From IMG/VR virus record IMGVR_UViG_3300032287_000751, positions 1 to 22,035 of that record: a stretch of DNA of 22,035 bases, one strand, 5' to 3'. The translations under genes were made by a program, and so were the position numbers. How positions within the stretch are numbered: the first letter of the stretch is position 1; each line of letters starts with the position of its first letter. Below, in pieces: positions 1,775 to 5,079 of the stretch. Below the pieces are notes generated by a model. The model had not been told where the DNA came from, searched no databases, and worked only from the letters and a program-made list of their open reading frames with translations. Origin of the DNA: a virus.

Positions 1775-2425
1775 ATGAAAGTTATAGCAGCAGCCTTTGT
1801 AAAGGCACAGAAAGAGTTTGCACCAGCATTAAAGACATCAACAAACCCTCATTTTAGATCTAAGTATGTAGCTTTAGATGGCTGTATTGAGGCCGTGCTT
1901 GATGCATTAAACAACAATGGCATAGCATTGATTCAACAAACTCACGATTGTGAGAATGGTATCCGTATTGAAACAATCCTATTACATGAGTCTGGTGAGC
2001 AGTTAAGTGGTGGCATCTTACATGTGCCAGCACCTAAGCAAGATCCTCAAGGGTATGGTAGTGCATTGACATATGCCCGTAGATATAGCCTTATGGCCAC
2101 TTGTGGCATAGCCCCAGAGGATGATGACGGCAATTTAGCAACAGAAAGAGCTGGCAGTGTGGTAAAAAAGCCACAAACTAACGCTTTATCCTTCTTTATT
2201 CCTGGCAAAGATGCAATTAGTTGCCCAGATCTATTGACATGGGAGAAGAATTTTGATGCAATGTCAGAACAGCTAGTTAATTCTAGCCTTCCAACAGAGG
2301 ATAAAGTAGCAAAACTCAAGGCACTAATAGACGTAAACTTACCGACATTAGACCGCTTACCCGTAGATAAGAAGGTTCTATACATAGGCAGACAAGCCAC
2401 TAGGATCAACAGAACAAAAGGATAA
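1775..2425 (+). CDS. ERF-family single-strand DNA annealing protein
   Basis: 216 residues with clear ERF-family landmarks: NPHFRSKY (24-31), the segment GIALIQQ, HESGEQLSGG (71-80), then DPQGYGSALTYARRYSL (90-106) and EDDDGN (115-120). P22 Erf-type proteins form rings on single-stranded DNA and anneal complementary strands, which drives phage recombination, genome circularisation or repair. The YqaJ-type nuclease immediately upstream would generate the single-stranded substrate, so the two form a Red-like module. The C-terminal half (about 125-216) is not conserved in my reading and may carry partner contacts. An AAGGA Shine-Dalgarno sequence lies upstream of the ATG within the end of the preceding small gene. 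Confidence 0.9.
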   Translation: MKVIAAAFVKAQKEFAPALKTSTNPHFRSKYVALDGCIEAVLDALNNNGIALIQQTHDCENGIRIETILLHESGEQLSGGILHVPAPKQDPQGYGSALTYARRYSLMATCGIAPEDDDGNLATERAGSVVKKPQTNALSFFIPGKDAISCPDLLTWEKNFDAMSEQLVNSSLPTEDKVAKLKALIDVNLPTLDRLPVDKKVLYIGRQATRINRTKG

Positions 2426-2427
2426 TA

Positions 2428-2628
2428 ATGAAACCAGTTAAGACAGACTTCAATGCTTTTGAATGGCGTTTTCCACGCTCGTTTAAAGAAATTAATGGAT
2501 ATGAATACGAAGTGAATTTAGAGTCGCCAAAAGAAAAAAGGCAACGCGTATGGAGAGCAACAAAGATCTCCGTAGGCATTGCCCTTAGCCTTATGGCTTG
2601 GATTACTTATTCATTACATACATTGTAA
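2428..2628 (+). CDS. Small protein with C-terminal membrane anchor, unknown function
   Basis: 66 residues, starting 2 nt after the ERF stop with an AAGGA ribosome binding site 5 nt before the ATG. The N-terminal 40 residues are soluble and charged (EYEVNLESPKEKRQRVWRAT). The last 20 (ISVGIALSLMAWITYSLHTL) form one hydrophobic segment, so this looks like a tail-anchored inner-membrane protein with a basic patch before the membrane. No family is recognised. The final eight sense codons and the stop are overlapped on the opposite strand by the end of the pqqA-like gene (2603-2628), so the two genes share 26 bp in antisense. Confidence 0.65.
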   Translation: MKPVKTDFNAFEWRFPRSFKEINGYEYEVNLESPKEKRQRVWRATKISVGIALSLMAWITYSLHTL

Positions 2629-2674
2629 CTTCGAAGCCAAAGCGCATTTCAGTAGCTGCTGGAGTTGTCCACAT
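2603..2674 (-). CDS. pqqA: PQQ precursor peptide PqqA
   Basis: A 23-residue peptide encoded against the surrounding + genes. It begins MWTTPAATEM and contains RFGFEVTMYV. Known PqqA peptides are about 23-24 residues with Trp2, Pro5, an acidic residue at 9, Arg11, Gly13 and the invariant Glu15-x-x-x-Tyr19; all of these are present at the same positions, with Asn22 and a basic last residue (Lys23, often Arg). In PQQ synthesis, radical-SAM enzyme PqqE, with chaperone PqqD, links Glu15 to Tyr19, and the pair is cut out and oxidised to PQQ, the cofactor of methanol and glucose dehydrogenases. One peptide is consumed per cofactor. An AAGGA Shine-Dalgarno sequence lies 8 nt before the ATG. No pqqB-F genes are visible, so the host must supply the enzymes. 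Function in the phage is inferred; family identity is strong. Confidence 0.88.
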   Translation of the reverse strand: MWTTPAATEMRFGFEVTMYVMNK

Positions 2675-2682
2675 GGTGTTAG

Positions 2683-2688
2683 TCCTTA
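2683..2688 (-). promoter_or_regulatory. Ribosome binding site of the pqqA-like gene
   Basis: On the minus strand this reads TAAGGA, 8 nt upstream of the ATG at 2674. It is as good as the AAGGA sites before the virion genes (for example those at 6431, 11386 and 18526). This supports real translation of such a short gene and fixes its start. Confidence 0.7.
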
Positions 2689-2787
2689 TTTATGACAAGC
2701 AAGATTACTTGTTACGCAAATTATGCGTATTTTGCGATACAAAGTATATAAGCAAAAACATTAAACATACCTAATGAAAGGAAATTT
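2689..2787. promoter_or_regulatory. Divergent control region between pqqA and the downstream small-gene cluster
   Basis: This is the only sizeable untranslated stretch in the left block, lying between the 5' ends of two divergent genes. It holds nested inverted repeats: ACAAG (2695-2699) with CTTGT (2708-2712); ACGCA (2714-2718) with TGCGT (2724-2728); CGCAAA (2715-2720) with TTTGCG (2731-2736); and ATAC (2737-2740) with GTAT (2744-2747). An AT-rich TATATAAG follows at 2745-2752, and a GAAAGGA ribosome binding site sits before the ATG at 2788. The clustering of TGCG half-sites looks like an operator for a dimeric repressor. I could not find a convincing -35/-10 pair in either direction, so promoter activity is inferred from position. 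Confidence 0.4.
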
Positions 2788-3078
2788 ATGTTAGATGCAG
2801 AAGATCAAGCGGTATTAGACACAACAGACTTATATCGGTTCACTCCGGAAGGTAAGTTATTTATAGCATTATTCTCAAGTGCCATGCATGACGCAATAAA
2901 TAATAAATGCACGTTACTAGAGAGATGCAATGCAATTAGTTTTTTAACTAGAGAGCCACAGGATTTACGAGATATATGTTTATCCATTGCTGGCTATCAT
3001 AAAGACTATGTAAAGAAGAAGTTGATGCAAAGTCTTGGAGTTAAAGAGTTTTTCACTTTACAGGGCAAGATAAAATGA
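2788..3078 (+). CDS. Hypothetical phage protein (96 aa)
   Basis: 96 residues, soluble and mostly helical in appearance, preceded by a good GAAAGGA ribosome binding site. The middle (about 57-76, TREPQDLRDICLSIAGYHKD) loosely resembles small phage proteins in which a segment of the type 'DF..VCELAG.D...V' follows a helical region, but I cannot tie it to a named family or a function. It is the first gene after the control region, and its stop overlaps the start of the cell wall hydrolase in an ATGA junction, so the two are probably coupled. No membrane segment or catalytic motif is visible. Confidence 0.6.
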   Translation: MLDAEDQAVLDTTDLYRFTPEGKLFIALFSSAMHDAINNKCTLLERCNAISFLTREPQDLRDICLSIAGYHKDYVKKKLMQSLGVKEFFTLQGKIK

Positions 3079-3422
3079 TAAGTGCAGCAATGATGTGTAT
3101 GGCATTAACGATTGCTCACGAAGCTGGTGCAGAGCCAGTTAGTGGGCAAGTGGCAGTGGGTTACGTTTTGTATCGCAGAGCTAACTATGACCGCAACAAA
3201 GTATGTCTTGAAGTTTATAGGCCATACCAATTTGAATGGACTACCAAGCCAAAAGATTATGACATGCAGAAGTTGCGACCATATTTAGATTTAGCTGAAA
3301 AAATTCTAAACAAAAAGATCAAAGATACAAGTAAGGGCAGCACACATTTTCATAGCGTAGCTTTACCTAACCAGTGGGGCAAGCCTATAAAAGTAGTAAT
3401 TAACAATCATATATTCTATTAA
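3075..3422 (+). CDS. SleB-like cell wall hydrolase (Hydrolase_2 family)
   Basis: 115 residues. The sequence AHEAGAEPVSGQVAVGYVLYRR (about 14-35, the family's EA..E...GQ.AV..V..NR block), the later VC..VYRPYQFEW and the GSTHFHS segment (about 94-100) match the SleB/CwlJ type peptidoglycan hydrolase domain. That domain cleaves the glycan backbone, with the Glu in the first block as the presumed catalytic acid. The protein is just the catalytic domain, shorter than spore SleB, with no peptidoglycan-binding repeats. The N-terminus (MISAAMMCMALTIAHE) is hydrophobic but part of the domain, so no separate signal peptide is claimed. It sits away from the holin/M15 cassette and on the other strand, which suggests a role other than, or in addition to, final lysis. 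Confidence 0.75.
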   Translation: MISAAMMCMALTIAHEAGAEPVSGQVAVGYVLYRRANYDRNKVCLEVYRPYQFEWTTKPKDYDMQKLRPYLDLAEKILNKKIKDTSKGSTHFHSVALPNQWGKPIKVVINNHIFY

Positions 3423-3690: not shown

Positions 3691-3888
3691 GTGTAATTGC
3701 GTTGGTTTTGGTGTGACTATGGACATTTCCATATATTGAGCATAGATAAGTATAAAATCATCTTCATTTTCACTGAAAAAAATTCTAACGATAGTTTCGT
3801 TATTTTCCTCAATGATTTCGATATCCCATATCTTACGTCCTATGAGTTTATCTAAAGCATGTAACTGTTCTGATGTAGGGTTTTCCAC
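3688..3888 (-). CDS. Hypothetical protein (66 aa), last gene of the late block
   Basis: 66 residues starting with GTG, which overlaps the stop of the phosphoesterase gene in a TAGTG junction, so it is likely translated by coupling. Composition is acidic with alternating beta-prone stretches (IWDIEIIEENNETIVRIFF, about residues 20-38). No family is recognised. Its stop codon lies inside the T-rich tail of the opposite-strand terminator, so the two convergent transcription units meet here without spare DNA. Confidence 0.55.
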   Translation of the reverse strand: MENPTSEQLHALDKLIGRKIWDIEIIEENNETIVRIFFSENEDDFILIYAQYMEMSIVTPKPTQLH

Positions 3889-4601
3889 TACACAATTTTA
3901 CCATTCCATTTACCATTTGTATTAAGAACCATTGGCATTAATTTTGGTTGGCCATCAAGGATCATTCCACAGCCAACAATAAATCTAGTCTTGAAGTTTT
4001 TAGCATAGTTAAATGCCATTGACTTCTGATTGATAAGTGAGCCTACTTGCATACCCCAAACTAAAGCATCTGGGTTAGAGTAGTATCCAATACTAAACTT
4101 AGTATGATAGTGGCCTTGCACTGTGTTCATACCATACTGCATAGCTACCTTTAATACGTCAGCAGATAGTCCATGTGTAAAGAAGCAACGTGATCCATCT
4201 GATAGGTTAATAGTAATATCTTCTTCCCATTGCCAGCCTGTGCCAACACCTAAGAAATCATTGTAATGTTTAAGGTAGCCTTTGGGAACGCCATGCTTTA
4301 ATGCACGTCTGTATAACATAGATGAGTGATTGCTATGCACAATCTGCATCTTAGGGAATATCTTTTCTAGTGTTTGAATATATGCAATAGACGCTGCCAA
4401 CTCATGGCCAGCAGAGAATAGATCTGGATCACTATCATGCATAGACATCGCGTGCATATCAAGCTCGTCACCAATATTAATAACGAGATCTGGTTTGTAT
4501 TTTGTCTTGAGCGCTTTAAGAAAATTGAATGCATCTGGATGGTGATATGGTATATGTAAGTCGGATATTACTAATACGGATTTGTATGATTTAGTAGCCA
4601 T
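3888..4601 (-). CDS. Calcineurin-like metallophosphoesterase
   Basis: 237 residues. Metal-binding motifs of the superfamily appear in order: SDLHIPYH (Asp and His, about 13-20), INIGDELD (about 41-48), SNHSS in place of the usual GNHE (about 90-94), FTHG (about 140-143) and GHYH (about 158-161). These bind two metal ions and hydrolyse phosphomono- or diesters. The substrate cannot be told from sequence; nucleotide, nucleic acid and protein phosphatase activities all occur in phage relatives. The GNHE-to-SNHS change replaces the Gly and Glu but keeps the Asn and His. It sits directly after the lysis genes. The start ATG is inside a predicted hairpin (4599-4629), so its translation may be restrained. 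Confidence 0.8.
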   Translation of the reverse strand: MATKSYKSVLVISDLHIPYHHPDAFNFLKALKTKYKPDLVINIGDELDMHAMSMHDSDPDLFSAGHELAASIAYIQTLEKIFPKMQIVHSNHSSMLYRRALKHGVPKGYLKHYNDFLGVGTGWQWEEDITINLSDGSRCFFTHGLSADVLKVAMQYGMNTVQGHYHTKFSIGYYSNPDALVWGMQVGSLINQKSMAFNYAKNFKTRFIVGCGMILDGQPKLMPMVLNTNGKWNGKIV

Positions 4602-4641: not shown

Positions 4642-5079
4642 TTACTTGAACTGTCTAGTGCCTTGTTTATCAATGATTAAAGTTTGTTTACGAGGGATGT
4701 AACCTTCTTCTGCAAACGCAATATGAACCCAGCGATCAAACTCCAATATAAGTTGATCGTAAGCCACGTTGCTAGACGATAATCGTTTAACAATTTCTTT
4801 AGGTGTGCCAAAACCTGGACAGACAAAATCTGCCGCCAGTCCTTTGACGTGAGCGCTTGTCGGCTTGCTTCCAAGTAGAGAATTAACCATGAGGCAACGA
4901 TAAGCACTGTTAATATGAATAGGGCTTCCCAAACATTCACGAACATCCTCCAAATTCTTGGCTAAAAATTTTAGGTGATTCTTTACTTTAACATCTGTTG
5001 GCTGATTGTCTATGCCTTGTCTATCAGCCAGCTCAGAGGCAGTTAATTCTTTGAGTGTAAAGTGTGGGGACAGATTCAT
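4642..5079 (-). CDS. Peptidase M15-type endolysin (zinc D,D/L,D-peptidase)
   Basis: 145 residues. The M15_3-type metal site is clear: SAHVKGLAADF gives His77 and Asp84, and WVHIAF gives His119, the three zinc ligands. INSAYRC (about 56-62) is the conserved block before the site. The enzyme would cut peptide cross-links in peptidoglycan. The N-terminal MNLSPHFTLKELTASE is the usual opening of this phage family and is not a signal peptide, so export needs the holin encoded immediately upstream. The ATG overlaps the holin stop in ATGA. The length is typical for single-domain phage endolysins of Gram-negative hosts. Confidence 0.85.
   Translation of the reverse strand: MNLSPHFTLKELTASELADRQGIDNQPTDVKVKNHLKFLAKNLEDVRECLGSPIHINSAYRCLMVNSLLGSKPTSAHVKGLAADFVCPGFGTPKEIVKRLSSSNVAYDQLILEFDRWVHIAFAEEGYIPRKQTLIIDKQGTRQFK

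Follow-up and report, generated by a model that had tools for sequence, protein, structure and literature searches.

Positions 2,603 to 2,674 of a 22,035-base virus record (the window hereafter, i.e. the whole stretch of DNA that was analysed) raise the question why a virus should encode, alone between its recombination block and its late genes, a 23-residue precursor peptide of PQQ that is identical to the PqqA of Methylotenera and Methylophilus in every residue. Our analysis argues that this pqqA is likely to be a functional phage auxiliary metabolic gene, which would supply consumed substrate to the host enzymes PqqBCDE under control of the host PQQ regulon. The usual view of an auxiliary metabolic gene is that of an enzyme; in this case the product is a consumable substrate, and at 23 residues its gene is mostly skipped by gene finders. 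The coordinates of all features are given in the table below.

The preliminary description of the window had proposed a complete minus-strand PqqA frame with an AAGGA 8 nt before the ATG and with Trp2, Pro5, Glu9, Arg11, Gly13, Glu15, Tyr19, Asn22 and a basic end at PqqA positions. Read from 2674 to 2603 the window indeed yields MWTTPAATEMRFGFEVTMYVMNK followed by TAA, all of these residues occupy PqqA positions, and the AAGGA is found at the expected distance (plus strand 2683-2687). The profile search that had been proposed gave a match to PF08042 of 40.3 bits against a cut-off of 21.1 (E 3e-10), spanning the full profile (positions 1-19 of 19), and NCBIfam TIGR02107 was matched with 38.8 bits against a cut-off of 20 (positions 1-21 of 21). 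A host-only profile made from 69 host PqqA peptides scored 57.8 bits on the window pqqA and 5.1 bits on the next best frame of the window; since the best frame among 200 shuffled windows reached 10.6 bits with this profile, the PqqA match is not due to chance. The peptide also shows the E-x3-Y spacing of Glu15 and Tyr19, the residues cross-linked by PqqE; it has a typical PqqA length (23 residues; typically about 20-30), and the gene has its own start codon and its own ribosome-binding site.

The setting is that of a genuine phage: structural, lysis and recombination genes surround pqqA, and complete cultured phage genomes carry the gene as well. On the plus strand, positions 2 to 2425 encode a serine recombinase (DNA invertase/integrase family), a RecE-like exonuclease and the Erf-like annealing protein; the minus strand from 3688 on encodes mostly tail, head and lysis genes. 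The earlier placement of pqqA as antisense within the recombination block holds for the strand, which is indeed the opposite one, but only the last 26 nt of the gene (2603-2628) overlap a plus-strand ORF, and the remainder lies between this ORF and the next one, which starts at 2788. The overlapped 66-aa ORF has no PHROG match, and its length and its overlap with pqqA are nearly unchanged in close relatives. No PHROG match was obtained for the divergent 96-aa ORF either; the 113-nt gap between this ORF and pqqA contains the pqqA promoter region. The late genes and pqqA share a strand, so that late transcription might also extend into pqqA by read-through. No pqqBCDE neighbours are present near the window pqqA, which leaves its membership in the PqqA family standing because OM43-type hosts also keep pqqA apart from pqqBCDE; the OM43-like genome G004, for instance, has a pqqBCDE cluster without an adjacent pqqA. 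On the far side of the promoter region, endolysin-family genes at 3075-3422 (plus strand) and 4642-5079 (minus strand) flank a metallophosphoesterase (3888-4601) that is common to the window and pelagiphages.

Table. Features of the pqqA locus in the window (positions refer to the window).
Feature	Position	Strand	Remarks
Erf-like ssDNA annealing protein	1775..2425	plus	anchor for fetching relatives
ORF, 66 aa, end of recombination block	2428..2628	plus	tail-to-tail overlap of 26 nt with pqqA
pqqA (PQQ precursor peptide, 23 aa)	2603..2674	minus	ATG to TAA, peptide MWTTPAATEMRFGFEVTMYVMNK
Shine-Dalgarno AAGGA	2683..2687	minus	8 nt before the pqqA ATG; a similar purine-rich Shine-Dalgarno sequence precedes other listed pqqA copies
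Predicted transcription start	near 2713	minus	consensus-based
Predicted -10 hexamer CATAAT	2720..2725	minus	consensus-based; 39 nt from the upstream element
PQQ-box-like element TTAATGTTTTTGCTTATA	2747..2764	minus	degenerate copy of CTCATGAAAATCATGAG; centre about 42 bp before the predicted start
ORF, 96 aa, divergent from pqqA	2788..3078	plus	no PHROG match

Conservation of the gene was assessed in relatives that were fetched by their Erf protein regardless of pqqA content, the denominator for the 19 nearest relatives being independent of pqqA. The antisense gene, for which a search in related phages had been suggested, is present in all 19 closest Erf relatives (66-99% identical), on the opposite strand and at nearly equal distance behind erf. 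The dN/dS test proposed at the same time gave a value of about 0.08 across 27 Erf-ascertained pqqA alleles, so that window-type pqqA is under strong purifying selection. In the pqqA frame pN/pS amounts to 0.11. Of the remaining five frames, four have values of 1.6-6.9 and one, on the other strand, has a value of 0.21. Glu15, Tyr19, Arg11 and Gly13 are invariant in the 27 alleles. The preliminary description had let its assignment depend, as far as sequence can decide, on a profile match and on the persistence of Glu15, Tyr19 and the frame in relatives, and all of these were found. Seventeen larger contigs with a more distant Erf (best segments 46-79% identical) are without pqqA; a methylotroph host is not implied for them, and a control kinship search on a pqqA-less Erf relative yielded no clear host.

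The gene is by no means confined to the relatives of the window. By tblastn against phage records, pqqA was located in P19250A, MEP301, Venkman, MEP401, MEP402 and four Melnitz isolates, i.e. in all nine cultured Methylophilales/Methylophilaceae phage records that were found, and also in the metagenomic phage ctXG6705 from Manatee Spring. It is unannotated in P19250A, MEP301, Venkman and MEP401, and the records of Melnitz and ctXG6705 annotate an opposite-strand ORF in its place. In Melnitz-1 (L126, 74848-75053) the gene masked in this way stands directly before a tRNA-Leu gene. A degenerate DNA pattern for PqqA identified at least 120 loci in viral contigs. Among the matches listed, every copy with a complete frame in the locus encodes a full-length PqqA, nearly all copies have a purine-rich ribosome-binding sequence, and most viral PqqA peptides are of the Methylophilaceae type, a minority resembling those of Burkholderiales or other methylotrophs. 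The pqqA-bearing records that were checked as a whole hold exactly one copy each.

Between otherwise unrelated phages a pqqA-sized stretch is often the sole shared DNA. By blastn, the window has only the 72-75 nt of pqqA in common with P19250A and Venkman (90% identity). Likewise, within 8 kb around pqqA in P19250A only the pqqA stretch is common to ctXG6705, MEP401, MEP402 and MEP301, and within 5 kb of MEP401 only this stretch is common to P19250A, MEP301, Venkman, ctXG6705 and Melnitz. As nothing but the pqqA stretch is shared, the gene either moves as a tiny cassette or has been acquired repeatedly among unrelated methylophages.

In the hosts, pqqA was detected in 120 of 120 Methylophilaceae genomes, with a median of 4 copies (range 1-12) and more than one copy in 114. 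Since Methylophilaceae keep a median of 4 copies, pqqA dosage appears to matter in hosts. Many pqqA copies lie apart from pqqBCDE in the host genomes G001-G121 (family of L160), and some of the multiple Methylophilaceae copies might be phage-derived. The viral side looks different in its partner genes: PqqE scored over the cut-off in none of 41 pqqA-bearing viral records (the window itself is not among the 41), and a methanol dehydrogenase was found in one of them, a 72-kb contig (G135). Given that none of these 41 records has PqqE over the cut-off, phages of this kind seem to provide the precursor and to leave its conversion to the host. The methanol dehydrogenase of the 72-kb viral contig (L046; G135:C1:34049-35731) is PQQ-dependent and occurs together with pqqA, as in Lake Baikal methylophages.

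When the 200 nt upstream of phage pqqA were searched for motifs de novo, in a set of 109 non-redundant sequences, the search returned the element TT[A/C]ATGATTTTCnnTA[T/G] with a log-likelihood of 596, compared with 54 in shuffled sequence. It is present at a score above 10 in 92 of the 109 upstreams; above 14 there are 82 matches within the 200 nt upstream of pqqA versus 8 in the remaining phage DNA of those loci, which makes the element about 900-fold denser upstream of pqqA than elsewhere in the phage loci, both strands considered. Because this model had been trained on the same phage sequences, the test was repeated with a motif derived from hosts only. The host-only motif is a 17-bp palindrome with the consensus CTCATGAAAATCATGAG (log-likelihood 415 versus 34), here named PQQ box, and is present in 56 of 115 host upstreams. 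Applied to the phages, it exceeds a 1% threshold in 51 of the 109 upstreams, with about 1 expected, and it is about 110-fold enriched upstream of phage pqqA. In four Methylophilaceae genomes CTCATGAAAATCATGAG with at most one mismatch occurs at 2-3 sites per genome, with no site for the reversed control, and all nine sites adjoin pqqA or pqqB. The palindrome is probably the operator of a PQQ regulator. Both Methylophilaceae and other Betaproteobacteria have it next to pqqA and pqqB (L328-L336; host upstreams L129-L247), and Methylophaga has the variant CTCAGGAAAATCCTGAG.

Of the 57 phage upstreams with a -10 hexamer, 35 have the element starting 38-39 nt ahead of it, whereas random placement gives a peak of at most 6. 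At this spacing the palindrome would be centred about 42 bp upstream of the predicted transcription start, the location of class II activators. The main palindrome of the hosts is more distant, its -10 following at 60-61 nt; at +24 there is a partial second site whose distance to the -10 is roughly that of the phage element. In layout, phage pqqA promoters thus resemble that half of the host arrangement which is nearer to the promoter. Across the phage pqqA family, then, a putative host operator is found at an activating position, and the window's own match is weak: the element TTAATGTTTTTGCTTATA scores 12.5, and values of 12.1 and 13.1 are reached elsewhere in the window. At the aligned position the closest relatives (L252-L265) mostly have TTTCATGGTTTTACTGAT or TTTCATGGTTATCCGTAT. 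A generic sigma-70 scan found no promoter near the window pqqA, and over the phage upstreams a simple sigma-70 score was barely above that of shuffles (8.34 versus 8.12). As MEP401 is without the element and that of Venkman is weak, not every phage pqqA makes use of it.

From these data we infer a supply of PQQ precursor during infection, and this reading gains support from the PQQ-box-like element and from the lack of a detectable pqqE and, in all but one case, of a methanol dehydrogenase gene among 41 pqqA-bearing viral records. In detail, host RNA polymerase and the activator of the host pqqA genes, bound at about -42, would transcribe phage pqqA during infection. The phage peptide would enter host PqqD/PqqE, where Glu15 and Tyr19 would be cross-linked, and then the later steps of PQQ synthesis in the host; additional precursor would maintain the PQQ supply once host transcription falls, and sustained PQQ would keep the PQQ-dependent methanol dehydrogenase yielding energy and carbon for virus production. 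The virus thereby probably keeps the methanol metabolism of its host supplied during infection. One PqqA is consumed per PQQ made, and with several copies in the host the precursor becomes a plausible bottleneck once host transcription falls, although the several copies that hosts already have make a limitation by precursor less certain. If the proposed role is true, cofactor supply limits phage production in methylotrophs.

Other readings of the gene have to be weighed against precursor supply. A short mosaic patch common to otherwise unrelated genomes would also be left by a neutral passenger, in which case recombination would have distributed a small piece of host DNA that brings the phage no benefit. 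Such a passenger is hardly credible in view of strong purifying selection across many synonymous changes; dN/dS already largely refutes it, all 19 relatives keep pqqA, and phage pqqA genes have good ribosome-binding sites and a preserved promoter spacing. Phage PqqA might instead be a decoy, reducing PQQ production by tying up PqqD/PqqE and so redirecting, e.g., metabolism or S-adenosylmethionine, and a competitive inhibitor would likewise appear as a standalone peptide without partner enzymes. In a decoy one would expect Glu15 or Tyr19 to have been lost, whereas the cross-linked residues and their surroundings are kept and the peptide is the host's own; moreover, the phage gene bears an element like that of host pqqA promoters. 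Because the cross-linked residues are kept, we regard a decoy role as very improbable.

Two further readings accept a working pqqA and differ in its purpose or its control. The PQQ made from phage PqqA could serve an end other than methanol oxidation, be it redox protection or competition for a TonB-dependent PQQ importer, a protein that may act as a receptor in phage entry. According to PMC12124388, PqqU-type PQQ importers are widespread in Gram-negative bacteria. Among the matches listed, on the other hand, the gene is concentrated in methylotroph-type PqqA, and the cultured carriers, where a host is named, infect Methylophilales or Methylophilaceae, so that a use unrelated to methanol seems improbable. 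It is unlikely, too, though less remote, that pqqA is functional and the upstream element is a generic promoter or the site of a phage regulator and not a means of host PQQ-regulon control. The window copy is degenerate, some isolates are without the element and the activator is putative, all of which would suit a generic element; phage DNA, by contrast, contains the element hardly anywhere except upstream of pqqA, and every site of the palindrome in four host genomes adjoins pqqA or pqqB.

Taking the phages together, we are moderately confident in a more general form of the precursor-supply reading: across unrelated Methylophilaceae phages, pqqA would be a near-obligatory, mostly unannotated cassette of about 70 nt, wired into the host PQQ regulon via a previously undescribed operator and supplying a cofactor precursor to hosts of the dominant aquatic methylotroph group. 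Compared with Methylophilaceae PqqA (PF08042, TIGR02107), the window gene has the same 23 residues, keeps the cross-linked residues and has an upstream element of like kind; it differs in being phage-encoded, single-copy, alone, antisense to a recombination block and without adjacent pqqBCDE. A precedent for a phage metabolic gene that uses the site of a host regulator is provided by cyanophage pstS and phoA, which stand under host PHO boxes. The likeness lies in a phage metabolic gene being read via the binding site of a host regulator (putative here); the difference is that here the regulon is that of PQQ and not of phosphate, and the product is a consumed peptide substrate.

Phage pqqA itself is not new in kind. 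The preliminary description had left undecided whether such a gene was already on record, and it is: pqqA has been described together with methanol dehydrogenase in the T4-like metagenomic methylophage population VP_266 from Lake Baikal (PMC7678222), and it appears among viral genes in PMC13188868. In a paper on RiPPs (PMC11118758) PqqA figures solely as a bacterial family whose expression accompanies that of defence genes, and the papers on Melnitz, Venkman and MEP301 (PMC9004378, PMC8163748, PMC8024684) make no mention of pqqA. For the Lake Baikal populations VP_266 and VP_139 (PMC7678222) phage pqqA was likewise proposed to support methanol oxidation; these are T4-like metagenomic populations with methanol dehydrogenase, whereas here small phages carry pqqA alone. 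Our study extends that case to many unrelated methylophage lineages and adds selection tests as well as a promoter element that phages have in common with hosts. What is new is the PQQ-box-like element upstream of most phage pqqA genes, akin to the host pqqA palindrome; no description of a pqqA operator or PQQ box was found in a literature search for which subscription papers were mostly out of reach. The PQQ box offers a concrete starting point for finding the regulator that governs PQQ synthesis in Methylophilaceae and other Betaproteobacteria.

One candidate was dropped as phage evidence. The record named 'Acinetobacter phage MD-2021a' (CAKLQF020000010.1, L128) holds a bacterial pqqABCDE cluster beside ppk; with polyphosphate kinase adjoining pqqABCDE, the record looks contaminated or mislabelled. 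A PqqA of the type DMRFGFEITMYIANR or similar, which resembles that of Burkholderiales, was seen in several putative phage contigs (L004, L034, L043, L049, L057, L071, L077, L107, L114), and these Burkholderiales-like peptides hint at pqqA in phages of other hosts. Some of the putative phage contigs with pqqA are large, namely L049 with 166 kb, L057 with 148 kb and L031 with 356 kb.
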